Shown here one piece after another: positions 11,496-54,600 of a stretch of DNA of 64,000 bases; position 1 is the first letter of the stretch; each line of letters opens with the position of its first letter. Source of the DNA: Deroplatys truncata. Its lineage: Eukaryota > Arthropoda > Insecta > Mantodea > Mantidae. The position numbers and the translations under genes were made by a program. The DNA is taken from the NCBI GenBank assembly GCA_030765065.1, contig CM060978.1, positions 219,313,498-219,377,497 of the forward strand, in the 5' to 3' direction. A model generated the notes under the pieces. That model worked only from the letters and a program-made list of their open reading frames with translations, ran no database searches and was not told the DNA's origin.

Positions 11496-11534
11496 TTAGA
11501 GATCGTTGTCATTACTGTTTTCTTTCTTTCTTTT

Positions 11535-25735: not shown

Positions 25736-25844
25736 ATGGCGAATGCTTACAGTCCACAGTCATGTCTTTGACCTTATTTACAATGCTCTGAAAGTACACT
25801 GGGTAGTGTTTCTTGTGCGTTTGCATATCAGTATTTTTACTTTC

Positions 25845-26672: not shown

Positions 26673-28763
26673 TATACTTTACTATTGTTTGCAACTGCTC
26701 TGTTTGTAACGCTTCCTGCTTGAGATCTTTTAAAATATCTCTTTAGTATTTTACTTTTAAAGAAATTTAATCACTACCCTGAAAGCTTATTTATTCCAAA
26801 GTATTCGCGGCGTTTAATTTCTGGAAATGTGAGTCACATCCATAAATGAACTCCTTACATTTACTATGAAAGGTCTTTTCCGTAGAGAAACGTTAATGAA
26901 ATGTAACACTTGTGCTTTTGAATTCCTAGAAGGTAATACATCTGTTCCTGCCACGGACAACTGAACCGGAGCTTAGGGAAAAGGTTTAGCAGACTGGTAA
27001 TAAACAAATTAAATTTTCCCATTTAAAATCTTTTAAAGTGAACGAATGAAACAATTACCTCTCGCAAGGAGCTGTTTCAGTGGAAAATGTAGGTATTTCA
27101 TGGTAAACGTCTCCAATTAAAATTCTACGAATTTCAAGAGAGAAGAAAAGAACCACTGAAATATACGAAGTGGAAGGTTTACATACTTATCCTTTAAACC
27201 ATAAAGCGATTGATATGAATAAAATTTATGAGCATTTTTATTTTATCAATATATTTACCTAAAACATTTCGATAAAAAGGTACCTTTGGTAGCCGCACCT
27301 TTCTTCGCAGCGGGGTGAAAATGGATAAGGGACATGGTGACAACTACCCCAGAATGACTGTGTCAATAAAATTAAGTTTTGCTGTGATATTTCATTCTAA
27401 AGGCCATTCGTGTATTTTTAGCAAATTTTTAATATTTACTCAAAGCACTAAAACCGAAATATATATGCTGTAGCTCTGAAGTTAAGAAAGAAATATAATA
27501 AATATATTAATTTAAACATTTACTCAGACATACAGAAGATAAACAAAAGCAATTAACAGGGAAGCTTTGAGTTGTCAGATACAAAAATAAAATATCCAGG
27601 TGTTTATCCAAGCGTTCAGTGAAAAAGAAACTGGCGTTTTAATTATCAATTTAGGGAAATACATATAGAGAAATAGATTATTAAAAATTTGCGTAATACA
27701 TGCAATTCCTGCCTAACACTTTATTTTATATATACATTCAATGAAATAAAATATGATGCAGTTTTACAAACGTTGTATATGGCACGGAGTAGTTATAACA
27801 TCCTAACACAAGCGTAAAGTACTATACCAAACGAAAATGCTAAAAGTATGAGAAAATGAGCTCAGCTTGTAAATGTATGTTGTTCTTTGAATACAATACA
27901 AGAGACGTAGTATTTAACATCAACGTTAGCTTAAACAGCGTTTCTGTGTTAAGGAGTTATCAAGAATAGGTTTCAACTAGTGACCTAAAGAGGAACTGCG
28001 TTGAGTTTTCTCTTCCCCATAGATTTCAACGAAGGCTGTCAAAGTTAGCGTAACTTTTGAGAAAAATTTATTATAAAACATGACGAGAATAAAGCCTTAT
28101 ATTGATCTTATACAATATGAATTAAGGCTTTTAAAACTGTTGCGAAGATTTATAAACTAGTGTTGTACCTATTGTGCGGTCCAAACTTCCTGACGTTACA
28201 GGCGAACGAATACGGTGCCAAACTTCCTCCACTTCGCAGAATGTTCTGCGCTTGTGCTAAATGTCATCGCAACTTTATAAATGCTAGAAACGAACAGTAG
28301 TATTACATCGAAGTTTAACTCACAACTGATGTGCCTGTATCCTTCACCACTCATTTTGCTTTTGATAGTGTCCGCCAAACTTTACTGCTTCAACCTGGAT
28401 GAAGTTACGGTCATAGAACTCTACCTACCTGACTTTCTAAAATACATCCTCTTTTTACCTGTTAAAGGATTGCTTCAAGCAATTCATGGTTTTCTTGTGA
28501 AGTAATGTTTCCGGAACTGACAGCTTTGAATACTACTTTTACTTTTGGAGCACGTCTTGGAGCAGGCGTTATTTTTGAAAATAACACACATTTTGATTCA
28601 TCAAATCAAAAACCTAACACCGTCAAGTAACAGCAGTAGAAGGTGACTTCATTTATGCCAGCGACGTGTTTATTACTATTGTAAACATAATTAACACAAA
28701 ATTTCCACGAAGGAAAACTATAAATTAATAAAATTAACTGTTCTTCCAAACAAGCCGTGTATT

Positions 28764-28809: not shown

Positions 28810-28955
28810 AAAACGCACAATTAAACATTTTTTTAAAAAATAATCAATTCAAAAGTATGTTTCTTAGCAACCTAATTTTCTACCTCAATAAGGAACATAA
28901 GTCTAAAATGTTGCTTAAAAATGATGACAATCCCACTGTAAGAAGCATTTGTTTA

Positions 28956-29852
28956 TAAAAAATCTGATGTGTTACACTCACATGACTTTCCCTACTCTTG
29001 TACAAAGTACTTTTACAAACACTTATACTCCATATGCTTCATAATAATCAGATATCAGGATGTTAATCTTAAAGCTAATTTTCTTGTAGATGCAAGGGGA
29101 ATTGGTAGGCTTTAAGCGACAGTCAAATATTTTAAGAGCTGGTTGCTATGTGGAGTATTCCATTCTCTTTGCATTAGCAGGACAAAAAAAAGAGAAAAAG
29201 AATAACGAATTCCCATTTGAGAAAAAGTATAAGTATTGGAAAATTTAAGGGAATAACAAGCAATATCTCGAAAATTGTTCACTCAACAAAATAGTGTATA
29301 TAACATAAATTGTGTATTTTAACGCGATCTACATTTTTCGTGTAGTAAAATTTTGTCTATCTCTTATGGTTTACCGGTCATGCAAAAGTCGTTCACAATG
29401 AAGAATACTTTTGAAGACATTCGCAGAAAATTCAAGATATACATTTTATTTATCATGAAGGTATCTTAAATATATGATATTTTAATCAAAATCGTTAGAG
29501 CCTTTTTTGAGAAAATTAAAATTTTCGAAAAAAGTTCCATGTAAAAGGTAATCTCTGGTGGGGGATTTTCTTGAAAACCTTCGTGTCGCATCTCTGGAAG
29601 ATACTGAACCCAAATAGCAAGTTTGGTGTTTATCCGACTGTTCATTTCTGAGTTATGCTGCTCTCAGACAGAGACACACACACGCACACACACAGATAGA
29701 CACACAGACACACACGGACATGCTTCCAAAAATGCTTGATATGCATTCAGTGCACCTCAAAACATGTATTTCCTGTGAAATTTCGGTATCGAATTTTTGG
29801 GTGGAATACGATACTTCCCCTACCTACTATACGTAGCAGAGAAAGTAAAAAC
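28956..29852 (-). repeat. Family A element, full-length copy
   Basis: From AAAAAATCTGATGTGTTACACTC to TATACGTAGCAGAGAAAGTAAAAA. The (CA)n/GACA mosaic is at 29665-29722. Nothing was recognised in 29853-30774. Confidence 0.9.
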
Positions 29853-30774: not shown

Positions 30775-31980
30775 ATACAAACATAGTTTTTCATCTTAGG
30801 TGCATTGTACTGCCACCTACTGCCTGGTACTCATTATCTACGACCTCAGTAGTAATCAGACATCGTGAAACAGCAGACTGGGACGCTCCGTGGAACTCAC
30901 GGACTTCGAACGTGGTCAGGTGATTGGGTGTCACTTGTGTCAGAAGTCTGTACGCGAGATTTCCGCACTCCTAAACTTCCCTAGATGTACTGTTTCTGAT
31001 GTGATAGTGAAGTGGAAACTTGAAGGGACATGCACAGAACAAAAGCGCACAAGCCGACCTCGTCTGTTGACTGACATTTGAAGAGGGCTGTAAAGAGTAA
31101 TAGGCAGACATCTATCCAGACCATCACACAGGAATTCCAAACTGCATCAGAATCCACTCCAAGTACGATGACAGTTAGGCCTGAGGTGAGAAATCTTGGA
31201 TTCCATGGCGAGCGGCTCCTTATAAGCCACACATCACGCAGGAAAATGTCAAAAGGCGCCTGACTTGGTGTAAGGAGCGTCAACCTTACACGTTTGAACA
31301 GTGGCAAAAAGTTATGTGCAGTAACGAATCACGGTACACAATGTGGCGATCCGATGGCAGGTTGCGGGTATGGGGAATGCCCGGTGAACGTCATCTTCCA
31401 GCGTGTGTAGTGCCAACAGTGAAATTTGGAGGTGGTGGTGTTATGGTGTGGTCGTGTTTTTCCTGGAGGGGGCTTGCACCCCTTGTTGTTTTGCGTGGCA
31501 CGATCACAGCGCAGACCTACATTGATACTATTTTAAGCACCTTCTTGCTTCCCACTGTTGAAGAGCAATTCGGGGATGGCGATTGCATCTTTCAACACGA
31601 TCGAGCAACTGTTCATAGTGCACGGGCTGTGGCGGAGTGGTTACACGACAATAACATTCCTGTAATGGACTGGCCTGCACAGAGTGCTGACTTGAATCCT
31701 ATAGAATACCTTTGGGATGTGTTGGAACGCCGACTTCGTGCCGGGCCTCACCGACCTACATCGATACCTCTCCTCAGTTCCGCATTCCGTGAAGAATGGG
31801 CTGCCATTCCCCAAGAAACCTTCCAGCACCTGATTAAAAATATGCCTGCGAGAGTGAATGCTGTCATCAAGGCTAAGGGTGGGCCAAAACCATATTGACT
31901 TCCAGCATAACCGATGGAGGGCGCCACGAACTTGTACGTCATTTTCAGCCAGGTGTCCGGATACTTTTGATCACGTAGTG
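30775..31980 (+). mobile_element. Tc1-like DNA transposon, decayed
   Basis: The right end AGGTGTCCGGATACTTTTGA...CACGTAGTG stops at 31980 and is followed by TA, as expected for a Tc1/mariner element. The left terminal repeat could not be recognised; homology begins around AAACATAGTTTTTCATC (30782). Encloses the broken transposase gene below. The ~30 bp right terminus is GC-richer than the flanks. Confidence 0.8.
30878..31900 (+). pseudogene. Tc1-like transposase pseudogene
   Basis: DNA cut-and-paste transposase of the Tc1 group. The N-terminal helix-turn-helix is seen as LTDFERGQVIG...VREISALLNFPRCTVSDV (30890-31015), followed by the second DNA-binding part (RQTSIQTITQEFQTAS) and the catalytic domain. 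The DDE core reads SNESRY (first Asp replaced by Asn, ~31323), FQHDRA (second Asp, ~31597), and, 34 residues later, NPIEYLWDVLERRL (Glu, ~31702), i.e. DD34E. The start codon is apparently CTG rather than ATG at 30878. A short deletion near 31075 and a 1-base deletion near 31207 shift the frame. The last 194 codons (31314-31898) are open, ending KAKGGPKPY. Non-functional. Confidence 0.9.
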
Positions 31981-32049: not shown

Positions 32050-33560
32050 TTTTGTGTAGCTATGATATCAGTCTAATTATATTAAAAAAATAACATCCCG
32101 CCTTAAAACGATATGTGTATAATATAATATATAAAATGTATATTACAGTCATTGGATTATGTCTATTTTATTATGTACATATATAGTAATGTTATGAGAA
32201 TGTATTACGAAGTTTAAAAATGTAGGAGCTGTGAGAACAGAAGCAAGTTGCCTTCCGCAGCAAACAGAATTACAAAGTAACAGCCAAAAGTTGCTAACAA
32301 TGAGGTAACCTTGAGACAATAATAAAGTAGTAAGTTGAATAAAGGCTACTAATAATTTTTGACACAATAATAATGTAATATTTAAAACAGTTTATAAATA
32401 GCCATTCAAAAAAAACTAGAAAAACCTTAAGTTAAATAAAAGTATTCTATTGGAGTAGGATTAGCCAATCAGAGACTTGAAATAGAGTAAATGTACAAAT
32501 GCAGGCGGGAGACGCTACAAGGAAGCGTAACCGAGCAGTTTGGTACGGATTCAATGAGAGACATGAAAAGTTATTGAGGTGAGAATAACATAAAGCTTAC
32601 GTGTTAAAAGGTACAATTAACAATAATCTCACAGCTCTATAGTTGGATACATCAGTGAGGTGTTATTTAATCGTGTGAAGTAATAGAATAAAAAGTGCAA
32701 TACAATTATAATTTGTGTAAACCTTTATTCTTTAGCCTTACGAGTCCTGCTAAGACATACGTGCTTTATAAATTACTAATGACGCAGCCGAGGTATACAT
32801 ACATATGCACACGGGACCGTGTCTGCCTACGCAGATATCACATCCTCGCATGACCCAGGATTGCTCGTGGGCCCATTCCATTAACAGCGATACCTATTTT
32901 AAAACCCGCCTCCCCTATCTGGTCGAGTTTAGGCTAGGACTCGTCCTGCCCACCCTTCCAAACAGGGCCGGAAGTGGATACGCCACTTACGCGCGTCAGG
33001 CCAGCAGGGCGAACCCTACTGGGGGAGACTACCGAACAACCTCGGTGGACCCGATAGTTTCTAGTAACCGTCTACCAGCTATCCCTCATGGCTGGTGCCG
33101 GAGAGTCTCTAGGCGTCTTACAACCCCGCCTGGGCGGATAACCAGCAAAGCGTACCCAATCTAGTGAAGTCAGAAGTACTACGAGGGCTATGGGTCATCA
33201 GTGCCCACACTACAGCAGCTGAAGGGGTAAATATATATACATACATATATAATATTTAAATAAACATTAAAATAAAAAGTTGATTCTTAAAACGTGTGGC
33301 GAAGGCCACCGGAAAAGTAAACGTGGGGCGAAGGCCACCGAAAACTTTGTACCGTATATGGGACGAAGATTCCTAGAAATAATCTCCCACAAAAGGCATC
33401 CATTATTGCGTGGTCTAAAACAACTTCAAATTGGTGCCCATTAATGTTGCAACAACAACAATTAAACAACATCAAGTTTGGCTACCATACCTGGGGCTAC
33501 AACTACTTAAAGTTTGGTGCCCATAAGTGGTGCAACTACTGCAGCTACTACAACAATTCT
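32050..33560 (+). mobile_element. Family C LTR-retrotransposon remnant, copy 3
   Basis: LTR-like block lacking its first ~20 bases (starts ATATCAGTCTAATTATATT), with AGCCATTCA and TAGCCAATCAGAGA, AATCTCACAGCTC (~32622), and TGACGCAGCCGAGG (32780-32793). The leader resumes after a GC-rich retroposon insertion (32807-33235) with two GGCGAAGGCCACCGRAAA units (33298, 33328) and three ~40-base units (TTCAAATTGGTGCCCATTAA, TCAAGTTTGGCTACCATA, TTAAAGTTTGGTGCCCATAA). Ends inside the leader near 33560. Confidence 0.65.
32807..33235 (+). mobile_element. GC-rich retroposon of unknown type with 13-bp target duplication
   Basis: A 429-bp block, much richer in GC than its surroundings, flanked by the perfect direct repeat TATACATACATAT at 32794-32806 and 33236-33248. 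It ends in GGGGTAAATATA, a short A/T tail, so it inserted as a plus-strand retroposon into the family C leader. An open frame of 119 codons (from 32805) spans it, but I recognise no domain. It could be a SINE or a 5'-truncated LINE. No clear pol III A/B boxes were seen. Confidence 0.75.
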
Positions 33561-34058: not shown

Positions 34059-34528
34059 AGGCACGGTAGGGTAAATTGAACTGGATCAGACGAAGAGTGA
34101 AACGCATGAGTTGGCCTGATCGAGAGACTCCAACCGACAGTTGAGAAGAAAGAGAGGGAGAATCTCATTTCTACTGTCTCCGTCGCGTACGTCATACACA
34201 ATCTAAGCGTATGCGCCGCATGTACTGTGTTAATACGTAGCATAGGGAACTACTATTAGTTTCAAATGGGAAGAGTTCTGAGCTACAGCGAATAAGATGC
34301 ATTTGCGTGCACAGCGTTGCCACCTCGTTACCCCCACTCTTTTCATATTTCCCTCTCACTCTCACATCTGCCTGTCGCTAGAATGGTCGACGTAAAGCAA
34401 CCCAAACTGAATTATCTAAACTTTTATAATTCTCCTGGTGTTTAAATTCATAATTGGGAATATACTCGCATGCTACGTACGTATTTTTTAAGTGTTATAT
34501 AATTATAGGATATGAATTACCTGTGCTT

Positions 34529-35944
34529 TTAATCCAATGGAACTGCCAGTGGCTCATCCGTATCACTGTCATCAGTTACGTGAAGAGGCAATTCGTCACT
34601 GACACTGTCTTCATCGTCTGAGTCTTGCAAATTTATGATGATAGGTTCCAAAATATCGTCACGGCCTATTTCTTTCCAAAAGTCGTCTTCTTGTAGTTTT
34701 TCTGCATGTCTCACGCAGGCTTCCCAGTCTTGTTGAGTTACCTTGTCAATTTCTTCGTGAATAAGACGTTCAACGTCAGTCAGTTTAAAAGTGTTATTTC
34801 TGTTTGCAACCCCTCGTTTTATTTGAGCCCATACTAACTCAATTGGATTATACTGGCAGTGATAAGGGGGGAGGCGGATTACCTCGTGTCCCATTTCCAT
34901 TGCAAGTTGATCCAGCTGATACACTTTTCCCTGGTTTTTAAATGGAAGTACTCGTTGCAGTAACTCATTTTTAGTTTCTGTTGCCGAAAATTCAACCCCC
35001 TTTTTTTGCAACCATTCAACAATTTCGTTCTTTCTACTGGCAGTATTCGGTACTTTGTTTTCAATAACCGAATGATATGGTGCATTATCCATTATAATTA
35101 TGCTTCCCTCTTCTAAATAATTTAGGAATCTGTTCAAAAACCATTCTTTAAACGTATCAGCTGTCATCTCTTCGTGATAATCTGAGGTGGTTTTGGACAG
35201 AAAAATCCATTTGCTTTCAGGTACAAATCCTGTCTTAGCGGACCCTACATGACAAATAATAAGTCGACTGCCTTTTCCAACAGGTACCTTCAGGCCACCC
35301 TTTTTTGAGGAATCTTGCCAGATTGAATTTTGAGTGTGGTTTTTATTTACCCATGTCTCATCTAAGTAAAATATAGGTCTCGTATCGCAAGAATTGCGAA
35401 TTTCGTGCATTTTGCGTAAGAATTTTATTCTTGCCGCAACAATGTCACTCCTCTCCATTAAAAATTGTCGCCCATCATTTGTCTTTCTGTACCTGAACCC
35501 TAATCCTCTCAAAATTCTATAAGTAGATGAATTTGAACCAGTGTATGATATTTTAGTTCTAAGGGCACAAGTTATTTTCTGTATTGTTGGGAATTCACCT
35601 TGGTCATAAAACTCGAAAACAGTTCTGCGTACAACGTCCTTGTCAAAGTCAGTTAAATTTGTAATCCTCTTCGGAGGTCCAATGTGCTTTCTGGGCGATA
35701 CAAACACTGGAGTATCACTGGGAACAGATTTTCTTGCCTCTCCGCAAATGCGAGACACACTTGCTTTACCGACACAACACGCTTTAGCAGTAAGCTGTTG
35801 AGGATTTTTGAAATCAAGTTGATTTCTGTGTTCCTCATTGTTACATTTTTTAAAAAACGAGTAGACCCTAAATATAATACTTCGAGCCTGACTTCGCAAT
35901 ACCTGCCTCTTTGACTCGCCACTAAATTCACCACAATAAGCCAT
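34529..35944 (-). CDS. IS630/Tc1/mariner-superfamily transposase, DD82E type, intact
   Basis: Uninterrupted 471-codon gene. Residues ~1-75 are a basic DNA-binding region (QVLRSQARSIIFRVYSFF, then AKACCVGKASVSRICGEARK, helix-turn-helix-like). A DDE_3-type nuclease follows: first Asp in FYLDETWVNKNHTQ (~residue 194), second in SIIIMDNAPYHS (~residue 287), and Glu in PPYHCQYNPIELVWAQIKR. I count 82 residues between the second Asp and the Glu, the spacing of the group known from the literature as DD82E/Sailor (name from memory). The C-terminal tail is acidic (DSDDEDSVSDE...DDSDTDE). Start chosen at the first ATG, which keeps the whole N-terminal region. All three catalytic residues and the frame are preserved, unlike every other transposon gene here, so it is either young or under selection. 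No convincing terminal inverted repeats were found in the ~500 bases on the downstream side or ~1 kb upstream; a domesticated copy is an alternative. Confidence 0.9.
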   Translation of the reverse strand: MAYCGEFSGESKRQVLRSQARSIIFRVYSFFKKCNNEEHRNQLDFKNPQQLTAKACCVGKASVSRICGEARKSVPSDTPVFVSPRKHIGPPKRITNLTDFDKDVVRRTVFEFYDQGEFPTIQKITCALRTKISYTGSNSSTYRILRGLGFRYRKTNDGRQFLMERSDIVAARIKFLRKMHEIRNSCDTRPIFYLDETWVNKNHTQNSIWQDSSKKGGLKVPVGKGSRLIICHVGSAKTGFVPESKWIFLSKTTSDYHEEMTADTFKEWFLNRFLNYLEEGSIIIMDNAPYHSVIENKVPNTASRKNEIVEWLQKKGVEFSATETKNELLQRVLPFKNQGKVYQLDQLAMEMGHEVIRLPPYHCQYNPIELVWAQIKRGVANRNNTFKLTDVERLIHEEIDKVTQQDWEACVRHAEKLQEDDFWKEIGRDDILEPIIINLQDSDDEDSVSDELPLHVTDDSDTDEPLAVPLD

Positions 35945-37057
35945 TGCACTATTTTACTCTTGCTGCTTGCTCTCTGAACAACAACTGAATACTGATATTA
36001 ACTGTGTAGGGTAAATAAACTCCAACCCAGATTTAAAAATAACACACAATCATAAACATGTGACGGCTCACGTTCTGCAGATTCTACAAGTAACACAAGT
36101 GAGCTTGGTGGGCTGTTTGCTCTCTTTCAGCTTTAACAAACGCCTTGGTTTTACAACATAATTCTTTATCACCATCAAGTCAGTAGTTCTGTATAATTAC
36201 AAATATATATACATAATGTATACAATAATGCATACATACAAATAATGTGACCATTACAGTGCTTACGTGGTTATATTATAACATATGGGAATGTTTATTT
36301 GTTTGTATTATGAAAACTATTTGAGCTAAAAATATGTGGTTTTTACGGTTGTGTTACGAAAATTACTCCCTACCTTCTAGTGGGTTACTTTTTGCAAAAT
36401 TTGAATTTTTGTCTTAGCGCAAATTATATGTATTAGAAACACATTCGCTTAGCACGCGTCATGCTTAGCTTACGGCGAATGCAATATGACAACACAGCGG
36501 AACTCCGATTGGTTGCCGCTCTGGCCGCGCTCAAGGACAAACATCATCCCATTTGAAAAACACAGTAGTAGACGCTTGCGTACTATACTCTACATTAGCT
36601 GAATAGTTGTAATATTATTGTATTAGTGAGATTCCTGTTTTAAATAAAGTAAAGATTTAAAGTGTTCGTGTAGCAGAGCAGCTTAAGTGAGTGATTTACA
36701 AACTGAGTTTCGTAAATCGCATCTCAATCAATTATAACTAATAGGATTTTTAGTTGAAAAATTCAAGTTAAAACTGAACAATGACCGCTGTCCACAACCA
36801 GATCAAGCACTACCATCGATGCAGTATTCTCTCGTTATTTATAAAATGTACAGTCTAAATTATTTGTATCACATTTCAGCTTTCATAAACCCATAATTTC
36901 TTTCTTAGACTATAATGAAATATTTCATTTAATAAAGAAATTTTGTTCAAACTTCACATAATCATTTACTAATCCTGAGATAGTAAAATCATCAAGAAAT
37001 GTTAGAACCTTAGAAGTTTCAGGTCTAAGGCGCGAGAGTCGCACGCCTTTTTTTTTT
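35945..37057. other. Upstream flank of the transposase, unassigned
   Basis: Contains a minus-strand CCAAT motif (GATTGG on plus, ~36507) and a GC-richer patch (36460-36560) that could be promoter sequence for the minus-strand transposase. The rest is AT-rich with no recognised feature. Confidence 0.25.
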
Positions 37058-37907
37058 CTTTTTACTTTCTCTACTACGTACAGTAAGTAGGGGAAGTATT
37101 GTATTCCATCCAAAAATTCGATGCCGAGATTTCACCGGAAATACATGTTTTGAGACCCCCTGAATAAAAAAAAGCATTTTTGGAAACATGTCCGTGTGTG
37201 TGTGTGCTGTGAACAGCATAACTCAGAAACGAACAGTCGGATAAACACCAAACTTGGTATTTAGGTTCAGTATCTTCCAGAGATGCGACACGAAGGTTTT
37301 CAAGAAAATCCTTACCCCAGATAACCCTTTACATGGAGCATTTTTCGAAACTTTTATTTTTCTCAAAAATGGCTCTAAAGATTTTGATTAAAATAACATA
37401 TATTCAAGATACTTTCATGATAAATAAAATGTATATCTTGAATTTTCTGGGAATTTCTCCAAAAGTATTGCTCGTTGTGAACGATTTTTGCATAACTGGT
37501 AAATCATAAATGATAGGAAAGATTTTACTGCACAAAAAATGTATATCGCGTTAAAATTCACAATTTATGTTATATACATTCTTTTTGTTGAGTGAACCAT
37601 TTTCGAGATATTGCATGTTATTCCCTGAAATTTTCCAACACATACTTTTTCTCAAATGGGTATTCGTTATTCATTTTGTTTGTCGTGGTATTGCAAAGAG
37701 AATGGAATACTCCACATAGCAAGCAGCTCTTAAAATATTTGACTATCGTTTAAAGCCTACCAGTTCCCCTTGCATCTACTAGAAAATTATCAATAGGATT
37801 AACATCTCGATATCTCGATTAACATGAAGCATATGCAGATTAAGCGTTTGTAAAAATAGTTTGTACAAGAGTAGAGAAAGTCATGTGAGTGTAGCATCCG
37901 ATTTTTT
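37058..37907 (+). repeat. Family A element, full-length copy
   Basis: From TTTTTACTTTCTCTACTACG to GTGAGTGTAGCATCCGATTTTTTT, inserted after a T-rich run. The microsatellite block is short (GTGTGTGTGTGTGCTGTG). Confidence 0.9.
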
Positions 37908-37914
37908 TAATTTT

Positions 37915-39609: not shown

Positions 39610-40460
39610 GAAGCAGTGTTTTTAACACTTAAATGATTTCAGTCTAATTATATAATATAAAATTCAATAACAGCCCGCCTTAAAGTAATATGTGTATAAA
39701 TAACATATAAAATGTATGTAACATTCATTGTATTATGTTTATATTATTTTGTAGATGTTTAATAATATTATGTGAATGTATTAAGTAATTTAGCAATGTT
39801 GGAGTTGTGAGAATAGAGGCTGAAGGTTGCTAACAATGAGATAACAATGAGGTAACGTTGAGGCAATAATGAATTGGAAAGCTTAATAATACTACTTGTA
39901 ACTCTTGGAGCAACAATAATGTAATTTTTGAGACAGTTTATAAATAGCCAATCAACAACCAGAAAACCTGTAATACATATCCAGTGCGAGACGAAAATTC
40001 ATTACACAGTGAATATTATAAAGTTTACGTGTTTAAAAGTGCAATTAATAAATAATTTCACAGCTCTCTATATTAGTGAATTGTTATTTAATCGTTTGAA
40101 GGACTAATAAATGGGGTGAATTAAAAATTATAATTTGTTTAAGCCTACATTCCTTAGCCGCATCATCCCCTATTAAGAAATACATGTTTCTACAAATTAA
40201 TACTGACGCAGCTGGGGCAAACATAAGTATACATAAAATTAAAGAAACGTTAAAATACAAAGTTGATTGCTAAACGTTGGGGCAAAGGCCACTAGAAAGT
40301 AAACTTGGGGCGAAGGCCACCGGAAACTTTGTACCATACGTGGGGCAGTTATTTCATCAAGTTTGGCTCCCCAACAGTGGAAGTACAATACTACTCCTCC
40401 TAACAATACAAATCCTACTTCAAATTGACGCCCAAAGTGTGGTGCAAATAACGTAATTAA
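39610..40460 (+). mobile_element. Family C LTR-retrotransposon remnant, copy 4
   Basis: Starts TGAAGCAGTGTTTTTAACAC; contains AGCCAATCAACAACC and AATTTCACAGCTC, a primer-site-like TGACGCAGCTGGGGCA (40203-40218), two GGCRAAGGCCAC units (40279-40325), and ~45-base leader units (TCAAGTTTGGCTCCCCAA, ACTTCAAATTGACGCCCAA). About 150 bases of the LTR between the CCAAT region and GTGCGAGACGAAAA are deleted. Ends in the leader. Confidence 0.65.
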
Positions 40461-41830: not shown

Positions 41831-42589
41831 CTTCTAATATGAATCGCCTTATATAACCAAAATCAATAAAAGCAATATCGAAAGATTTTTCAAAAATTAA
41901 GTCCCCTAGAACCAAGCAAATGGTTCCTAAAATGTGCTCTCAATAATTGTTTGTGCAATAGCATCTTAAACACTTTACTGGTTTCCAATTTCTCCAATAA
42001 GTTTTGTTTATTGTATCATGTGATCATAAAAGAGGGCCCACAACTGATACTTTTAATACTGTGATATCGCATGAATTATCCACGGTTGATTCATAGAATT
42101 CTTTCTCCTCCAAATTCATTTGGGTGTGATTGCCAGGCATAGAAATTTCTAAGCATCGAAGCCAGGATGATAGGAAATAAAGACTGTTACTAGATTATAC
42201 CAGGTGGCCCAACAGCGCCGTATTTCACGTATGTAGATATCACTTCTAGCGTTAAAAGAGTTGTAGAATTCAAAGGGGTAACTCCAAGCAGACGCAGTCA
42301 GTGGGGTACTGGCACAATAACATGAGCGACGTTCGTTTTACTCCTCTTACTTATCAGCGGAGACGATTAGCGAATCGCGATCACTGAAAGGCAGTTCCCA
42401 GGTTTGCACTAGAGTGTAGTCAGTGATAACAGACAAGAACAGAAAGGTCTTTGAATGTTTTCCACTTCAGTCAGAGAGACTTTATTTTCGGGGGAATAAA
42501 TTCCCTTTTTAAGAGTCTTTATTTGATCTATCAGTACCCGCCCATATCTATTTTATATATTGTGTTTGCCTTGTTCCTTGTCTGACATT

Positions 42590-42693
42590 ATGGATTACAC
42601 GCATTGTAGAGTTAAACCAAAGCATTAAAGGGCCGTAACTAAAACCACGCAAATATGAGAGCAAGAAATGTGTACGACTGTCACTTGGTCCTC

Positions 42694-42747
<54 letters not shown>

Positions 42748-43097
42748 GTGCTATACGCACAACAGAGTAAATTAAAACATGAAAGCACCGTAACGAAGCT
42801 ATGCAAGCATGAGAAAGCTGAATGTGTATCACTGGCATTCGTTCTCCTGTTGCTATTATTATTATTATTATTATTACTATTATGTTGATAATTATTATTA
42901 TATTACACACTATACCAATAGTAGAGTAAATCAAAACGTTAAAGCGCCGTTACGAAATCCATGCAAACATAAGAGCACGTAATGTGCACGTCTGGCATTT
43001 GCACGCTTCCTATATTATGTAAATCGAAGCATAAAAGCCTCTTAACGAAAATCATGCAAACCCGAGCTGTGTATCACTGACATTTGTCTGCTTGCTA

Positions 43098-43141
<44 letters not shown>

Positions 43142-43246
43142 TACGCACTATACACATATTAGAGTAAATCAAAACATTGAAACGCCACAATGAAAAAAAC
43201 CCATGCAAACTTGAAAGAACGTAATGTGTATCACTGGCATTTGTTC

Positions 43247-43283
<37 letters not shown>

Positions 43284-43285
43284 TT
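42590..43285 (+). repeat. Left-arm tandem subrepeats with ATT spacers
   Basis: About five units of 100-150 bases share GTAGAGTAAATCAAAACATTAAAGCGCCGTAACGAAA-type text (shorter cores: GAGTAAATCAAAAC, CATGCAAAC, AATGTGTATCACTGGCATTTG), separated by (ATT)n runs at 42697-42745, 42855-42880, 43098-43141 and 43243-43282. Run lengths differ, consistent with slippage. Confidence 0.85.
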
Positions 43286-43689
43286 ATTGCTATTTTATAT
43301 TATTATTATTCTTATCGTTGTTTATGTTGTTGCTGCTGAACCAGTTGTCTGATCACTAGTATTCTCAAGTTAATAAGACTGTGGAGTGAGGAAGGTGAAT
43401 GATCACTGGACTGATCAGACAGAGCTATATAAGCGTGGCACGATAGTATTCTCCTCTGTATTCTGATCTGTCAAAATGTAAATGCCTCTTTATTTGAGAG
43501 TGTCATGTATGTGAAACAAAAGTTTATTAGTTATGTAACAAACAATAGGTCCATAGCTCTAATAAGGCCCTTTAAATCGCGTTGAGTAAAGCAAAACAGT
43601 AGAGTTAAGCAAAGCATTGATAACGTTGTTTACATTGCTAAAGGTATGAACTGTATATATGTACTAGATTGCTTCCTGTTGTGTTTAGC

Positions 43690-43990
43690 TTAGCTTACGG
43701 CGCAGTTCTGGTGCTTAAATGTTTTGATTTATAATACTCTGCTATGCAGTATTATAACAATAATAATCGTAACTAACAATAATATTAATAACAATAATAG
43801 GGTATACACACTACGTGTTTTCATGTCTGCATTGTTTTCGTTACGTCGCTTTAATGTTTTTATTTACTTTACAGTACACATAGTGTCATAGGAATACGAC
43901 TGCCAGTGATACACATTAAGTGCTGTTATGTTTGCATGGTTTTCTTGCGTCGCTTTAATATTTTGATTTATCCTATAATGCATGTAGTGC

Positions 43991-44038
<48 letters not shown>

Positions 44039-44139
44039 GGGGAATAAATGCCACTGATAAACATTACGTGATCTCGTGTTTGCATGGTTTTCGTTACGTC
44101 GCTTTAATGTTTTGATTTATCTCTACCATGCGTATAATG

Positions 44140-44181
<42 letters not shown>

Positions 44182-44300
44182 CAATAATAATGAAACAAGT
44201 GCCAGTGATGGGCATTACATGCTGTCATGTTGGCATAGTTTTCGTTTTGGCGCTTTAATGTTTTGGTTTAACTCTACAATGCGTATAATCTGTATTGTCA
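43690..44300 (-). repeat. Right-arm tandem subrepeats with AAT spacers
   Basis: About four units are the reverse complement of the left-arm units (GTTTGCATGGTTTTCGTTACG, GCTTTAATGTTTTGATTTA, GCCAGTGAT), separated by (AAT)n runs at 43994-44037 and 44142-44180. Confidence 0.85.
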
Positions 44301-44706
44301 GACAAGAACAACGTAAACACAATTTAGAAAATAGCTATGGATGGATACTAATATTTCAGATAAAGACACTTTAGTTATTTATCAAATTAAAAAATTAATT
44401 TATTCCATAGAAAATAAAATCCCTGCAACTGAAGTGGAAATTATTCTAAGACCTTTTCGATCTGTTTATTATGGTTCTTGGCTATCATCACTGAATATAT
44501 ACTCGAGTGCAAGCATGGAAACTGCCTGTCAGGGCTCGCGATAAGCTTCACTGATAAGCAAGAGGAGTAGAGCGAAGATGGCTAATGTTGTTGCGCCCGT
44601 TCCCACTGACATGTGTTTGGAATTGCCCCGTTGAATTCTGCAACTCCTTTAACTTACGAATGGATATCTACACACGTGAAATTCTGCGGGATTGGACCAC
44701 CTGGTA

Positions 44707-45460: not shown

Positions 45461-45462
45461 TT

Positions 45463-45591
45463 TTTACTTTCTCTACTACGTATAGTAAGTAGGGGAAGTA
45501 TTGTATTCCACCCAAAAATTCGATATCGAGATTTCACCGGAAATATATGTTTTGAGGCCTCCCGAATCCAAAAAAGTATTTTGGAAACATG

Positions 45592-45635
<44 letters not shown>

Positions 45636-46330
45636 TGTGAACAGCATAATCAGAAACCAACAGTCGGATAAACACCAAACTTGGTATTTAGGTTCAGTAT
45701 CTTTCAGAGATGCGACACGAAGGTTTTCAAGAAAATACCCTCACCCTAGATTACCCTTTACATGGAACATTTTTCGAAAATTTTTATTTCCTCAAACATG
45801 GCTCTAATGATTTAGATTAAAATATCATATGTTTAAGATATTTTTATGACAAATGAAATGTATATCTTGAATTTTCTGGGAATGTCTCCAAAAGTATTCT
45901 TCATTGTGAACGACTTTTGCATAACTGGTAAACTATAAGAGATAGACAAAATTTTACTGCACAAAAAATGTAGATCGCGTTAAAATACACAATTTATGTC
46001 ATACATTTTTTAGTTGGGTGAACCATTTTCGAGATATTGTTTGTTATTCCCTTAAATTTTCCAATACTTATACTTTTTCTCAAATTCGTTATTCATTTTG
46101 TTTGTCCTGGTAATGCAAAGACAATGGAATACTCCACATAGCAACTAGCTCTTAAAATATTTGACTATCGCTTAAAGCCTAGCAATTCCCCTTGCATCTA
46201 CAAGAAAATTAGCAATAAGATTAACATCTCGATATCTCGATTAACATGAAGCATATGGAGAATAAGCGTTTGTAAAAATAGTTTGTAAAAGAGAAGAGAA
46301 AGTCATGTGAGTGCAGCACATCAGATTTTT
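45463..46330 (+). repeat. Family A element, full-length copy with (GT)20
   Basis: From TTTTTACTTTCTCTACTACG to GTGAGTGCAGCACATCAGATTTTTT, with an uninterrupted (GT)20 at 45595-45634. Nothing was recognised in 46331-46896. Confidence 0.9.
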
Positions 46331-46897
46331 TAAAATGAAAACGGGATATACTGGAGTTTTGACATATTCATTTCGAAACCTTCGCTTTGAACCAATGCCA
46401 GAGCCATTGTGATGTTTAGATCATACATATTTTTACTTGTTTCGTATAGTATGGCATCATCAACAAACTACATTTCCTTAGTGGTAATATTGCAAGGCAA
46501 ATCATTCATCATTGCAATAAATAAAAGCGCACATCGCAGGTAACAAACTACCCATCCTCGTACATATGTTGGTGTTTTGAGACAGCGTTCTTTTGCCAGT
46601 AAGTGACCCTTGGCCGCTGTTGTTTACGTTTTTTATAGTGATAATAGTTTGAATGTTGATGTCTTGATGGCGACTCAGCAAGAATTCCTATGCCGGTAAT
46701 CACCGACCTCGAACCTGATGGTCGGATCGATTATCTCTGGTTCCAACTTTTGCATGTTGTGTCTATGTCTATCCTCCTGTAACCTTAGCCCGGACCTTCT
46801 CCATGAAGATTCAATTCCTTATCACGTAGTACTTTGACAAGAGCGATCGAGTGGTATTTGTCGCCTAATATTTGTCGTATTTAGGATTATTATTTTA

Positions 46898-48232
46898 CAG
46901 AGTTATTCATAAGTCAGTGTCACATTTGGAAAACATCTTGTGCGTGATGTATGATACGTGTGAGTCCGAATCATGTACGTATGGGAACAGAAGCTCTCCA
47001 AGTTTGTGTCACGTGAAGCGCGTATGTTGTGGTGACGCGGTTGGCCTCTAGGCGGCAGGAGTGTACAAAAGGCGTTCGCAGGTAACGAGAGAGCGTTTTG
47101 CGTGATGCAATTTGCGAAAACAGAGCTTACTTGTGCCTGTTCAGCGGCGATTTTGCACTCGTTTTCACAAGGATGCGCCAGATCGCAGGACCATCAAGAG
47201 GTGGTATGAAAGGTTCGAGCGCACTGGTTGTCTGTGTCCACCCAAACGACCCGGAAGGCCGGGACCGTCAGATGCCACTGTTGCATGTGTTCGTGAGATG
47301 TTTGCGCGCAGCCCTCATAAATCGACAAATCGTGCAAGTCTGCAGCCGGGAATGTCTCGGACGACTGTGTGGCGTATTCTTCACAAGCAACTGAAGGTGA
47401 AACCCTACAACCTGGAACTCCTGCAGGCGCCACTCACGGTGACAAGGAGGTTCGCACACAATTTGCCACCTACATGCAGGCTGCAATGACAGATGATTTT
47501 GGTGACAGACTCGTCTTCAGCGACGAAGTAAGGCTTCACTTGAGGAAAGTGAACAGACACAACGTGCACATTTGGGGAACCCAACACCCACATGTTACAT
47601 TCGAGCATGTGCGAGACTCCCCAAAAGATCAACGTGTGTTGCGCCCTGTCAAAGAACAAGGCTTACGAGCCCCTTTTCTTCACCGAATCCACAGTGATCG
47701 ACGTCACTTATCTGGACATGTTAGAACAATGGCTTATGCCTCAACTGACATACAGAGGTGACTTCGTTTTCCAACAGGACGGGGCCCCACCCCACTTCTA
47801 CTCGTGCGCGCGTACCTGAACCAGAACTTACCACGACGTTGGATTGGACGAAATGCTGACAATGACGTCGCATTGTTTCGGTGGCCGCCCCTATCCCCGG
47901 ATTTAACACCACGTGATTTCTTTCTCTGGGGATATGTGGAGGATAGGGTGTTCATTCCACCATTTCCAGCTGACTTGAAGGACCTCCGAGATCACATTAC
48001 AGCAGTCATAGCAACGGTCGACCTTGACATGCAGGTGCGGGTGAGAGCGGAATTTGACTATAGCCTGGATGTCTCCCGTGTAACCAGAGGCTCACACATT
48101 GAACACTTGTAAGGTATGCTAAACAAACTTTGAGAGATTGCCTTACATTTGGTATAACATTCACACTGGTATGTCAAGTACTTATTTTACAACAAACTTC
48201 CGAAATGTGACATTGACTTATGAATAACCCTG
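46898..48232 (+). mobile_element. Mariner-like DNA transposon with TIRs and TA duplication
   Basis: The left end CAGAGTTATTCATAAGTCAG (46898) and the right end, in reverse complement CAGGGTTATTCATAAGTCAA (48232), agree at about 28 of 30 terminal bases. TA flanks both (46896-46897; 48233-48234). The 1335-bp size is typical of mariner-like elements. It carries the broken transposase below. Confidence 0.9.
47104..48112 (+). pseudogene. Mariner-like transposase pseudogene
   Basis: The frame changes at least three times but the protein can be followed. An N-terminal helix-turn-helix (DRRTIKRWYERFERTG, PPKRPGRPGPSDATVACVREM, AT-hook-like RPGRPG), then NRASLQPGMSRTTVWRILHKQLKVKPY; shift near 47410; DDFGDRLVFSDEVRLHL (first Asp) and VNRHNVHIWG; shift near 47615; FFTESTVIDVTYLDMLEQWLMPQL, FVFQQDGAPPHF (second Asp, ~47778); shift near 47805; RRWIGR...RWPPLSPDLTPRDFFLWGYVEDRVF (third acidic residue, Asp) to RGSHIEHL, stop at 48110. 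The gap between second and third catalytic Asp is about 45-46 residues, longer than the 34 of classic mariner. Inactive because of frameshifts. Confidence 0.88.
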
Positions 48233-48234
48233 TA

Positions 48235-48589
48235 TTATATGAAGCCGCATTCTTAAGCTGGGCTCTTCTAATGCATTAGAACATATCCTGCACATTAGTC
48301 TTTCAATCAGATAGAATTTGTTTCTCTGTGTTTAGGCTGGAATTACACAGACGGTAGTTTACAATCTATAAGGATTACAAACCTGTAGTTAATTAGACGC
48401 ATTTTCTACTTCTCACAACTGCATGAACAATTTATCATATAGCCAACTTCTAGTCGTGTCTCTGTGACTCAGAAGCAGCCATCGAAACGATTAGGCTGCT
48501 GTGAGAACTCAGATTACAATTGACTTACTACAAGTTTATAGTCAATAATTTGGACTGCAAAATGTGGTCCGTGATCCCAGCCAAGTTAA
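48235..48589. other. No recognisable feature
   Basis: Nothing recognised between the mariner-like element and the next family A remnant. Confidence 0.4.
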
Positions 48590-48950
48590 ATGAAATATCA
48601 CCCAAAATGTTGATATCAAACTTTCACCGGAGGTATACGCTTTCAGTGTACCTGAATATGCGCGCGTGTGTTTCTATGAATAATAAAAAAAAAACTTAGA
48701 CGAATACCAAACATTCTGATTCAGTTCAGCATCGTTCGAGAACACAAGACGAAGACTTTCACGAGTCCCCCCACGCTAGATTATACCTTAGAATAGCTTT
48801 CGTTATTTTTTACTTTCTCTACTACGTATAGTAAGTAGGGGAAGTGTTGTATTCCACCCAAAAATTCGATACCGAGATTTCACCGGAAATACATGTTTTG
48901 AGACCCCCTGAATCCAAAAAAGGCATTTTTGGAAACATGTCCGTGTGTGC

Positions 48951-48996
<46 letters not shown>

Positions 48997-49830
48997 TGTG
49001 TCTGTGAACAGCATAACTCAGAAACGAACAGTTGGATAAACACCAAACTTGGTATTTAGGTTCAGTATCTTCCAGAGATGCGACACGAAGGTTTTAAAGA
49101 AAATGCCCCCATCCCAGACTACCCTTTACATGGAACATTTTTCGAAAATTTTAATTTTCTCAAAAACGGCTCTAACGATTTTGATTAAGATATCATATGT
49201 TTAAGATATTGTCATGACAAATAAAATGTATATCTCGAATTTTCTGGGAATGTCTCCAAAAGTTTTCTTCATTGTGCACGACTTTTTCATAACTGGTAAA
49301 CCATAAGAGATAGACAAAATTTCACTACACAAAAAACGTAGATCGCGTTAAAATACACAATTTATGTCATATACATTTCTTTTGTTGAGTGAACCGTTTG
49401 CGAGATATTGCTTGTTATTCCCTTAAATTTTCCAATACTTTTTCTCAAATTCGTTATTCATTTTTTTTATGTCCTGGACATGCAAAGAGAATGTAATGCA
49501 CCACATAGTAACCAGCGCTTAAAAATTTGACTATCGCTTAAAACGTACGATATTCCCCTTGCATCTACAAGAAAATTAGCAATAAGATTGACATCTCGAT
49601 ATCTCGATTAACATGAAGCATATGGAGAATAAGCGTTTGTAAAAATAGTTTGTACAAAAGTAGAGAAAGTCATGTGACTGTAGCACATCAGATTTTTTTT
49701 CAAAAATGGCGCTAATGCTTTTGTTTAAAATCTAAGGTATTAAAGTGAGAACGAAAACATACAATGGACTTTATATGTCATTTTTTATTTTTGAGGTGTG
49801 GTAATACTTACATGCATCAAACCCCTAAGC
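48590..49830 (+). repeat. Old family A copy interrupted by a younger one
   Basis: The old copy is in two parts: 48590-48806 (ATCACCCAAAATGTTGATATC to TTTCGTTATTTTT) and 49697-49830 (TCAAAAATGGCGCTAATGC to CATTTTTTATTTTTGAGG). The parts are consecutive in the family text, so the young copy between them inserted into the T-rich stretch before TCAAAAATGG. Confidence 0.7.
48807..49696 (+). repeat. Family A element, young full-length copy
   Basis: From ACTTTCTCTACTACGTATAG to GTGACTGTAGCACATCAGATTTTTT. The (GT)n block is at 48953-48988 with a GGTGTG interruption. Inserted inside an older member of the same family. Confidence 0.9.
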
Positions 49831-50400: not shown

Positions 50401-50637
50401 GGATACACAGATGTAACGAATATGTTCTGTATTCTTAAAGTGAAGAATTTTGGTAAAAGGAATGCTTATTGCATATGTTCTTAAAGTTTGCAATTTAAAC
50501 AAAATAACGAGCAGTGTGTCATTAAGCTTCTTTGAGAAGCGGGATGAGATATCACGTGTAGTGAGGGACCTAAAATCAGAGGTTAAGTGAAATATATTGT
50601 AAACTGTTGTGTTAAATCCAACAGAGTTGGATAATTA

Positions 50638-51597
50638 CACTAGTCTGCATTTTCAAACTTTTTGTCAGATGATTTCTTAAAAGTAGGTGTTCTTGAATCA
50701 AGTTTTTATGCTGATTCCAGAAATAACTTCCGTTTTTTTCTATCACGTGGTTCTTACACAAAATAAGTAATGTTTTGACAATTTTACTAATGAGCGTAGA
50801 AAAGTATTCAAATACCATTTCAAACAAGGTAAGTTTTTATTCAAGAAACATTTTAAGAATACTCTAAAGCACTCCCCTAATTTATTTCATGACTACATTT
50901 TAACAAAACAAGAAGCCAAAGTGTTTCATTTAATTTTTTTCAAACTTTCTCTTCTTTGACTTCCTTGCAGATCCTTGAAGATGGCTGTCCCTCCTCAACA
51001 TCCAACAGTAGTCAGCCATCATCTCCCCTGGTACCTCCTCTCCATTTCCTTAATATCTTGGTGAAAACGTTCACCCTGCTCTTCACTATAATGTCCCAGA
51101 TTTTCTGGAAAGTAGTCGATATGTAAATGCAGAAATGCACCTCATGTTACAACCCATCTTCTTGAAATTTTCCAACATTGCTTCGACAATGGCCTTGCAA
51201 TTAGGATCTTTGTTATTGCCTAAGAAGTTTTCAGTAACTGATCTGAAGCCGGTCCATGCTTCTATTTCTCTCTCATTCATTGTCTTCTCAAAATCCTCAT
51301 TCTTCATCAGTTTCTTTATTTGAGGACCAACAAAAATTCCAGCCTTTAATTTGTCTTGTGTAATGAAGGGAAATTTCTTGGAAAGGTACTTGAAGCAGGG
51401 CCCATCCTGTGGTAGAGCCCTTACAAATTGCTTCATCAAGCCCAATTTTATGTGTAGTGACGGAAACAATATCTTTATATCTCTGTATTTTTTAAGTTAA
51501 ATTGTGAAAAAACTGTAAAGCAGTTCTGAAATCAGCATAAAAAGTGAGTCAGCATCACTTATTAGTTTTCAGTCATCCGATATCATGCAGACTAGTG
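50638..51597 (-). mobile_element. CACTA/Chapaev-type DNA element, copy 2
   Basis: Ends CACTAGTCTGCAT (50638-50650) and ATGCAGACTAGTG (51585-51597), flanked on both sides by TTA (50635-50637; 51598-51600), a perfect 3-bp target duplication. 960 bp, inverted relative to the copy at 9688 and collinear with it along its whole length, so both descend from the same internally deleted element. Confidence 0.85.
50910..51475 (-). pseudogene. 3' fragment of GERFHQDI-type transposon protein, copy 2
   Basis: Open from about 51469 to 51086 on the minus strand (FPSLHIKLGLMKQFVRALPQDGPCFKYLSKKFPFITQ, KAGIFVGPQIKKLMKNEDFEK, AWTGFRSVTENFLGNNKDPN, MLENFKKMGC). A small deletion near 51145 then shifts the frame. 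The downstream part continues in another frame with YFPENLGHY, EQGERFHQD, ERRYQ and MMADYCW-equivalent codons to about 50930. Complements the copy at 9831: each keeps codons that the other has lost. Function as for that copy; no catalytic residues identified. Confidence 0.7.
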
Positions 51598-51600
51598 TTA

Positions 51601-54600
51601 TTATTTCAATGTACCAATTCTTTATACTTCATTTATACTCAGTTTTCAGTTTTACACCTACTACATGCGTCGGTGCTTGTTCCCATTCAAAATTAAAAGA
51701 GATGTTTGGGCTAAAATTCCAGATGCCAGAAGTAATGGTTAACATGTGTTTAAATTGCATTTTTAAAACTAATGGACAAATAAAACGGTTACAGATACAA
51801 AGAGGAATTAGCTTTGCTGCCGAGCGCTATGAGCAGGTAAGTGCGAAGTATTCTGACGTTCTACAAGGTACGTTTGATATATAGTAGCTAAAGCACCTGC
51901 AACATTTACGTTTTAGTGTTTTTTTAATGCCACGACTTTCACTATTTTATGAATTTCTTTTTCTGTCAGCTTATATCTCATTTCGAAGAAATTTTCGGGT
52001 ATTAGACAACAAATATGCTCTGATTAGTGCTTGTAAATTAATTTTGAAAATATTGAATATCAAAGGTAAAAAATATCTTGCATTTCCTAAGAAATATAAA
52101 AATGATAAACTCAAAAACATTTAAAATTGAGATAATACGCAAATATTGTTATTCGTTTTCAGCAGATAAAAATTAATTTTACCTTTATTCATTTGATGTT
52201 CGGAATATTTTCTGTTTTACTGTATCTTCAATCTTTAATTGAAGTTTCTGACAAATTACTTCTTGAGCTAGCAATAATTTCGTCATTATGAATGTCTTTT
52301 ACATTTTTCTTTTTTTCTGGATGTGTAGTAGGAGCCAGTTATAAGCAAGCGTTCATAGCTAGTTGCATTACTTTATCTCTCGTGATTTCCGCTCACTTCA
52401 CATTTATTCAATAAAAATAGGCAAGACACATATAAAGAATACGTCCAGTAATATATTTTTATCTCCATTGAAACTAATATTAATGAACCATATCACATAC
52501 ACACAGGAAAAACAGCCGCGAAAATATGGGATTTGCTCTGCACGAATAGATTTATCAAAAGTATAGAATTATTTGACTTTTCTACGAAGGTTTCATTTTT
52601 TATGTTCCAGTCCAAATAATGTTGTTTTTCCATTGTGTGACATTGACGACGTGAATTGATTCGTGCTCTCATATTTGTTAACGGGTTCCTAAAGCTAATT
52701 GTTAACCAGACTTAATCAGGGAAACAATTACTATCCAGATGACTTTATTATTATTGCTGAATTCTTGTGTTAATAAAACTGCAGTCTTATTTAAGCTATA
52801 TGTACGTCGTCATGTTTTAGACTGTTCGTCGTTTTCATATTTACACATATATAATTTTTATGTTGTTTCCATTTATGCACACTTGAGTCATAACTTTACA
52901 AACATACTTTTATCACGAAGACTAGAATAAATCTTGGGATAGAATCCCTTACACAAAGTTTTCCTGCCTGATAGAAAGGAAAGCATGATTAATGAACAAG
53001 CATTATTTCGAGAAAATCTTCAATTCCGGTATTTAAAAGGAGTAAATAATTTAATAACTGACCATAAACCTGCATGTAGTCTCGATAAAATTGTATGGTT
53101 TTGTTTATTTGTTAGATTCCAAAAACCTTGGTGGGACATCTGTCTGTTAATTTTATGCAGCTATACTAATAGGTTTAAAATATGGTCACTTAATTCATAT
53201 ATGATTCATTCAGGATAGCATTTTATACCTCACTCTTGTTTATTCCATTTATTGCTGACTTTGGTACCTAACTTGCATTTGGTAGCTTACCAGAGAAACG
53301 TTTGATATGTCCTCAGTTGTCAGTTGTTGCCAAATATTGCAAATAATTTGTTTCAATGAAATTGTTGGAGACAATCCAAAGGCTATTGAGGAAAATTTAC
53401 TGTTTACGACGAATTTCATTTATAGTTTAAATAAGGACATTTATAACCCTTGCATCTTATATAGACACAAATAAAGAGTGACTGGAAAAATAATGTACCT
53501 TGCAGAGGTTTGATTCCATTATTGATGTTTAAACGATGTGTAAGTAAATTACTTATCAAATGATTCATTTTATATCATTTTAAACTGATTTTTAACACTG
53601 CAGTAAGTTAGTATTTGCATAAATATTGCGTATGGGTAGTCATTTAACTGTTACTTTGTGAGCAATCGTGTATTTGGTGTTTCAGTGAAATTAACTACGA
53701 AACCGCTGTGAACACGAGTTTCGTGTTAAAACAAAAATTAAAGCTCTCCTAGGGGTTAAAATAATGTCGAGAGCTCATTTGTTTCCATTTAATTTCTTGG
53801 CTTTAAATGTATGGGAGGTTCCTTTGTCCTGACACATTTTTCATTGACATTTTGTTCGTTTGTTATGTGGTATTCATTTTTCTTGCTCAATAGCCAGTAG
53901 AGCCCAGGGGACATACATAAATGGCAGTTAATGAAATGGCTTTTAGGGAAACAATGACCTGTTGCGTGCATATAGATGATATTCAGTGCTATGACCTGTT
54001 GAACATAGTGCATATTATGGGAAGTAAATACGGCGTTTAAATTACAACTAATATTTATATACACGTCAGAAACAATGCTCTCTTTGCACCCGTTGTTTAA
54101 ATAAAAAGTGTTTTTGTTGCACAGGAAATTTCAAATAATTCGTTAGTGACAAAGTGTTGCAGGAACTATGTGAAAATTGAATTAGATTTTAAGATGTCAT
54201 TAACTCGGGCGGGATTTGATATACGGATATTCGACTTAAACCCGCGCTGAACTCCGTTACATCGCGATGAATTCTTCAACTCTAATTACATTTCCCAACA
54301 TTATTCTACAAGGATCAGTGTGTTGGAACACTCAATGGAAATTCTATCTCACTGTGGTGAAGCTGTGGTACACTCACTTCCATATATGCCTTCACCGCAG
54401 CTTCAGGTGGCATTCTACTGGCCTTTACAGATGGAGAATGTATAGCAAGGAGAATGGTGTGTATCTGTTTACCTTTTCGCGCATGCAGTGGTGTCTTATT
54501 TTACAAGCACAGTTTTAGAAAATTCGCATGTAAATACATAACTTTCAGCAATAGCTTTATTATTCACTTACAATATCCACGTTTAAATATATGACTAAAT

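Follow-up and report, generated by a model that had tools for sequence, protein, structure and literature searches.

The window analysed here (the whole 64,000-nucleotide stretch of the Deroplatys truncata assembly) raises the question of what the 2.5-kb structure at 42200..44704 is: a mobile foldback element or a palindrome of local origin. An earlier note, made from the sequence alone, had described it as a foldback element with ~1-kb inverted arms, TA on both sides, and ATT-spaced tandem subrepeats around a ~400-bp single-copy centre. This overall structure was confirmed. Self-comparison gives one inverted alignment, of 42200-43190 with 44704-43706 (arms of 991 and 999 nt), with 72.3% identity counting gaps (1046 columns, 102 of them gap columns; E 4e-154), and the two arms make up most of the 2505 bp, as is characteristic of a foldback. 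Nor is the similarity limited to the tandem units with their ATT spacers: the outer parts of the arms, which have no such units (368 and 390 nt), align as well, at 82% identity excluding gaps (404 columns, with 33 transitions and 32 transversions). Their local score is 244. For 458 pairs of stretches with the same spacing in the window, the scores have a median of 20 and a 95th percentile of 46, and reach 217 at most. Arm similarity ends at the TA: outward of it 4-9 of 20 bases match, inward 10-13 of 15. The RNA fold energy of the element is -992 kcal/mol; 13 stretches of equal length from the window range from -493 to -743.

Each arm contains five ~150-bp units, mostly spaced by (ATT)n (this is a hand count in which the fifth right unit is partial; the automatic count is five on the left and four on the right), and in left and right arm alike the third unit has no ATT run behind it. 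The centre is indeed single-copy inside the element, but its 43379-43690 part (the core in Table 1) recurs in other copies of the family. A comparison of arms and centre with the rest of the window (E 0.01) gave no further match except one of 46 bp at that limit, and the Rfam search of the window gave no match. The element has an observed/expected CpG ratio of 1.04 and the window one of 0.84; the outer arms stand at 0.85 and 0.83 and the centre at 0.55. The core includes a sequence that by eye resembles a TATA box (TATATAAG at 43426-43433).

Table 1. Features of the foldback copy in the window, long copies of the ~900-bp repeat in the window, and the mariner nested in L032 (positions of the window, except where L032 is given)
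Feature	Position	Strand	Basis
Left TA target duplication copy	42198..42199	.	20/22 left flanks are TA
Left outer arm, A-type end, starts CCAGGTGGCCCAAC	42200..42607	+	self-alignment, outer-part alignment, genome matches
Unit L1	42608..42692	+	borders set by hand
(ATT)n spacer after L1	42694..42746	+	
Unit L2	42762..42853	+	set by hand
(ATT)n spacer after L2	42854..42905	+	
Unit L3, without ATT spacer behind (like R3)	42921..43013	+	set by hand
Unit L4	43014..43097	+	set by hand
(ATT)n spacer after L4	43098..43143	+	
Unit L5	43158..43246	+	set by hand
Imperfect (ATT)n spacer after L5	43247..43315	+	
Core common to other copies	43379..43690	.	genome matches; L025, L034, L035-L037
Unit R5, partial	43690..43733	-	set by hand
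Degenerate (AAT)n spacer	43754..43799	-	
Unit R4	43802..43872	-	set by hand
Unit R3	43891..43975	-	set by hand
(AAT)n spacer	43992..44038	-	
Unit R2	44040..44127	-	set by hand
(AAT)n spacer	44142..44191	-	
Unit R1	44195..44277	-	set by hand
Right outer arm, A-type end, finishes CCACCTGG	44278..44704	-	self-alignment, outer-part alignment, genome matches
Right TA target duplication copy	44705..44706	.	16/22 right flanks are TA
~900-bp repeat, copies 1-6	3253-4166, 11531-12466, 14287-15226, 16029-16854, 21344-22119, 22679-23634		
~900-bp repeat, copies 7-11	25833-26673, 28953-29851, 37059-37910, 45461-46331, 48807-49698		
Nested DUF4817 mariner, TA-flanked, in the unit array of L032	L032:2527-3814		

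We searched the host assembly (4,289,915,091 bases, i.e. 4.29 Gb, in 818 contigs) for further copies, and both outer arms recur genome-wide. The left one (301 bp) has 42 listed matches, itself included, with 40 scored of 2287 first-look candidates; the right one (301 bp) has 40, itself included, with 40 scored of 2601. The recurrence of the outer arms, and inverted similarity beyond the ATT-spaced units, are the opposite of the two outcomes that the earlier note had named as speaking against a foldback element. The family end pair at TA is CCAGGTGGCCCAAC ... GTTGGGCCACCTGG, and a 27-base end motif (TACCAGGTGGCCCAACMGCGCCGTATT) has 269 exact matches in the assembly (141 forward and 128 reverse), compared with 0 for its reversed control. 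The 44 ends that were read have a mean identity of 89.4% to their own consensus over 145 bp; if this holds family-wide, the 269 perfect 27-mers would correspond, by a crude extrapolation, to several thousand ends. Exact patterns (two each) had 0 matches in viral and prokaryote contigs.

For the outer-arm matches 26 stretches were fetched (L009-L028 and L029-L034). We took 21 of them as two-ended copies, and these together with the window copy form the set of 22 on which the copy counts are based; five stretches with one terminal end only (L011, L013, L018, L019 and L029) were left out. In L034 the match begins at position 32, and its right end is an extrapolation from there. Five more stretches (L035-L039) were fetched later and stand outside these counts. 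Since the copies were chosen as the best matches to the A arm of the window element (end types are defined below), A ends are over-represented and the share of the two forms is biased. Of the 250 candidates that the core gave as query 40 were scored, and 39 of the matches lie outside the window copy, most of them starting near query position 50; parts of the core are present in L025 and L034 among the 22 copies. The next-best core loci after the window (L035, L036 and L037) all have the order units, core, inverted units. A arms are found on both sides in L036 (the right one is interrupted), and within the stretches fetched no left arm was seen in L035 and no right arm in L037.

TA adjoins both ends of the window element, as the earlier note had it, and in the 22 copies it is found at 36 of the 44 flanks, on both sides in 14 copies (for the two sides separately see Table 1), compared with a frequency of 0.089 for TA in the window as background. 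In eight of the 22 copies one flank is something other than TA, owing to mutation, truncation or a misplaced end. Empty sites were found for one copy (L028), whose joined flanks align over the junction to 16 related stretches without the element, in the window and at other loci: the junction has a single TA in 11 of them and a variant in five. L028 itself sits in a repeat, and of its left flank these alignments cover no more than 12-20 bp. We dropped L023 as a second empty site, as its two spanning alignments (64-67%) are too weak. The TA flanks together with the L028 empty sites indicate that the element inserted and duplicated TA, and this duplication is the strongest evidence for a transposon rather than a local palindrome.

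Ends were typed by their inner part (~260-400 bp from the end), which is present in A ends and absent from B ends. The foldback form (A-A, with the plan A-units-core-units'-A') is seen in eight of the 22 copies (window, L010, L012, L020, L025, L028, L033 and L034), and the asymmetric A-units-B form in 14, being the commoner one in this biased sample. The foldback is not a one-off but part of a large family in which most two-ended copies sampled are asymmetric. Almost all units (100 out of 102) are oriented with an A end of the same copy, i.e. inward. They run in one direction only in all 14 A-B copies but L014, and in both directions in six of the eight A-A copies versus one of the 14 A-B copies (Fisher p 0.0023). 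L012 and L034 are typed A-A, yet their units run one way only in the main count; another comparison found a second, inverted (minus-strand) unit in L034, which if counted makes it seven of eight. Among the B ends, 12 out of 14 share one junction (terminal sequence, then (AAT)n, then a reversed unit), and the ends of L014 and L021, which do not have it, are probably damaged A ends. Six B ends have a common ~290-bp insert at about position 145; in L022 it is part of a longer insert.

The number of units ranges from 1 to 12 in the 22 copies; 13 are found in L037, and L038 and L039 have perfect ends and no unit. The median spacing of units is 150 bp (73 spacings among the 102 units), and 69 of the 102 units are followed by at least four ATT within 60 bp. 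Shuffle tests give no support to the idea that the units are copies of the terminal sequence. The score of a hand-made unit against the outermost 60 bp of the left arm was reached by 18 of 500 shuffles, that against the right arm by 497 of 500 and that against the whole left outer arm by 167 of 500; for the consensus unit against the consensus arm it was 166-383 of 500. Unit conservation is 0.76-0.88 per ten columns, about that of the arms, and the tree of units is without resolution.

Within the window copy the two arms are 76% identical (over 145 bp) and the mean of the eight A-A copies is 81%, about the 82% found when A ends from different copies are compared. The tree built from the ends has almost the shape of a star, with 28 of 41 inner branches open. 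Sister arms are seen in L025 (97/90) and L033 (99/82), with the bootstrap not settled, and the arms of the window copy are not sisters. The likeliest history is that the ends, alike at the time of the family's spread, then decayed independently, with some arm-to-arm copying in some copies.

We looked for an autonomous relative, or for a transposase with the family ends, among DUF4817-type relatives (by tblastn) and in three frames of L029 and L032 (against Pfam), and found none. The L032 transposase has a DUF4817 helix-turn-helix (E 1.5e-16) with matches inside L032, and was ruled out as a partner by its own ends: a second end pair (GGGTCTTTCAACAAGAGTGTCC...) with TA around it marks it as a nested mariner. 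Likewise rejected was the L029 transposase, which lies between its own inverted ends (1926-1971 and 3311-3358) and whose named relatives are largely Periplaneta americana proteins. The tblastn search for DUF4817-type relatives also gave short and weak matches (E 0.0006 to 0.07), which lie at the ends of L036, L038 and L039 or close to them. In L036 short weak mariner transposase matches (780-857 and 3265-3315; aa 318-343 and 147-163) abut both ends, as if this copy had been inserted into an old mariner.

Two transposases in the window also have their own inverted ends. One belongs to a rather intact Tc1-like element at 34249-36569, with 42-bp inverted ends (ACTACTATTAG...) and a frame of 474 aa with a DDE_3 domain (34532-35953, minus strand); its best relative is 73% identical, and the named relatives are mostly from aphids. 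The other belongs to a decayed mariner-like element at 46884-48246 that has HTH domains and inverted ends of 58 bp; a copy of a ~900-bp repeat lies on either side of it. For the window transposase at 31185-31898 no ends were found. The ~900-bp interspersed repeat has eleven long copies in the 64 kb (~77-91% identical; Table 1) and many fragments; an inner stretch of L038, also present in L033 and L022, looks like this repeat nested in foldback copies. Further features of the window include a 325-bp hairpin at 8481-8805, self-complementary at 79% and with ends resembling TTAA, which may be one more short non-autonomous element; a ~1-kb inverted pair (9671-10654 and 50634-51616, 86% identical), both members of which have an open frame (FEKTM..ERE.EAWT.FRSVTENFLG) that matches nothing in Pfam; and a related 28-bp tandem pair (AAACGTGGGGCGAAGGCCACC...) at 33245-33362 and 40229-40344 (82% identical). 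A receptor exon with a 7-transmembrane domain lies at 62380-63204: its nearest named relatives are from the cockroaches Blattella germanica (63%) and Diploptera punctata (64%); the next is from Gryllus (62%, covering 77% of the query), and four unnamed proteins rank above them. By these relatives and those of the L029 transposase, the genome would probably be that of a cockroach or a close relative.

What, then, is the element? We think it quite probable that it is one old member of a large passenger family, made up of non-autonomous DNA transposons of the cut-and-paste type, inserting at TA and moved in trans by an IS630-Tc1-mariner transposase, a class to which TA alone points. The ends (CCAGGTGGCCCAAC...) would be recognised by a transposase encoded elsewhere. 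An A end would have ~400 bp of subterminal sequence and, further in, an array of 84-bp units pointing inward, mostly (ATT)n-spaced, and the number of units may change via slippage or unequal exchange in the (ATT)n tracts, as the range of 1-12 units among 22 copies suggests. The foldback form would have an A end at both sides, around a shared core in some copies, and the asymmetric form would have as its second end a short B end, which meets the array in an (AAT)n tract. By analogy with what excerpts of PMC3688188 describe for Galileo, Sleeping Beauty and Bari, the units might act as accessory binding sites; the present data do not support this role, since the units are not convincingly like the ends and are no better conserved than the arms.

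The direction of change between the two forms can be read in another way: the asymmetric A-B form may be the parent, with foldback copies arising when an A arm was copied onto the other end. We regard this variant as a real possibility, if a little less likely than not; the sister arms in L025 and L033 are what recent arm copying would give, but the one junction shared by 12 of the 14 B ends is what would be left by one deletion in a parent of foldback form, and the near-star tree of ends leaves the direction unsettled. A bolder version of the transposon reading, that a mariner-type family independently evolved the full foldback plan, with accessory-site arms and with (ATT)n exchange converting between asymmetric and palindromic copies, across thousands of ends in one insect genome, is put forward tentatively and is rather doubtful.

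Two explanations depart further from a TA-inserting passenger family. One is that there is no single mobile unit here, but an inverted duplication of local origin or a head-to-head pair of separate elements: the window arms are not each other's closest relatives, and the pairing L1-R1, L2-R2 and so on is not supported by unit similarity (the collinear order ranks 35 of 120 permutations). Against this, the order of units, core and inverted units recurs at other, unlinked loci, and there are the TA flanks with related empty sites, so we give this explanation hardly any credence. It is also quite unlikely that the element is a Mutator- or P-type foldback in the narrow sense, i.e. kin of FB, Galileo and Tetris. 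The outer arm, tandem units, middle and want of a transposase gene are the same, and arm units are found in Tetris and Galileo too, but the available parts of the descriptions set these elements apart by target duplications of 8-10 bp (Tetris) and 7-8 bp (D. willistoni Galileo), compared with TA here.

The passenger family of TA-inserting elements can be placed among known systems. Drosophila FB elements have a foldback plan with arm subrepeats and a 9-bp target duplication. The plan in the window family, with its arm subrepeats, is FB-like, but the duplication is TA; the 7-10 bp duplications of Galileo, Tetris and FB are not found in it. The proposal that the TA-flanked ends reflect a transposase source different from that of FB agrees with our results, as TA insertion points to a transposase class unlike those of the foldback elements in the excerpts consulted. 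The first seven bases of the element, CCAGGTG, resemble mauritiana-type mariner ends; a literature search for CCAGGTG with mariner and TIR found no paper. Among the titles and abstract openings listed no TA-inserting foldback with tandem units was recognised, which does not prove its absence from the literature. Mariner MITEs, in such excerpts, share the TA duplication and the lack of a transposase gene, but not ~1 kb arms with arrays of 84-bp units. In Sleeping Beauty and Bari (both Tc1/mariner), the inverted ends contain repeated binding sites (PMC3688188, in part); the ends here also contain repeats, but as unit arrays of the kind just mentioned in arms of that length.

Closest in plan is Tetris of Drosophila virilis, described in the available part of PMC4079207 as a non-autonomous foldback whose arms have an outer flanking domain and ~220-bp tandem repeats in variable number, and whose variable middle lacks coding capacity; its ends are common to a smaller element. 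The window family is likewise non-autonomous, with outer arms and variable tandem repeats; it differs in duplicating TA rather than 8-10 bp and in its ATT spacers, which that part of the paper does not mention for Tetris. The Tetris repeats, moreover, have a stretch of 37 bp in common with the outer arm (PMC4079207), whereas the similarity of unit and arm in the window family is not convincingly above that of shuffles. Galileo (Drosophila, P superfamily) has, in excerpts of PMC3688188 and PMC4168063, very long arms that contain tandem repeats (those of one D. willistoni copy are ~140 bp) and many non-autonomous copies, and its arms grow by repeat expansion and recruitment of inner sequence. 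Long repeat-bearing arms in many copies without a transposase gene are common to both, but Galileo has a 7-8 bp duplication, a P-type transposase and transposase binding sites in its repeats (PMC3688188, PMC4168063). The earlier view that no described element has this combination holds in part: repeat-bearing foldback arms are already known from Tetris and Galileo, and it is the TA target and, going by the excerpts consulted, the (ATT)n spacers that differ.

A family of TA-inserting foldbacks, with two forms side by side, would mean that the same architecture has come from another transposase class. It also offers a natural series (1-12 units, A-A versus A-B) for testing the effect of unit number on mobilisation, and its long and numerous inverted arms are likely sites of ectopic exchange, as excerpts of PMC4168063 describe for Galileo inversions. 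As far as the parts of these descriptions go, foldback transposons with repeat-bearing arms are known, and insertion at TA is what is new here.
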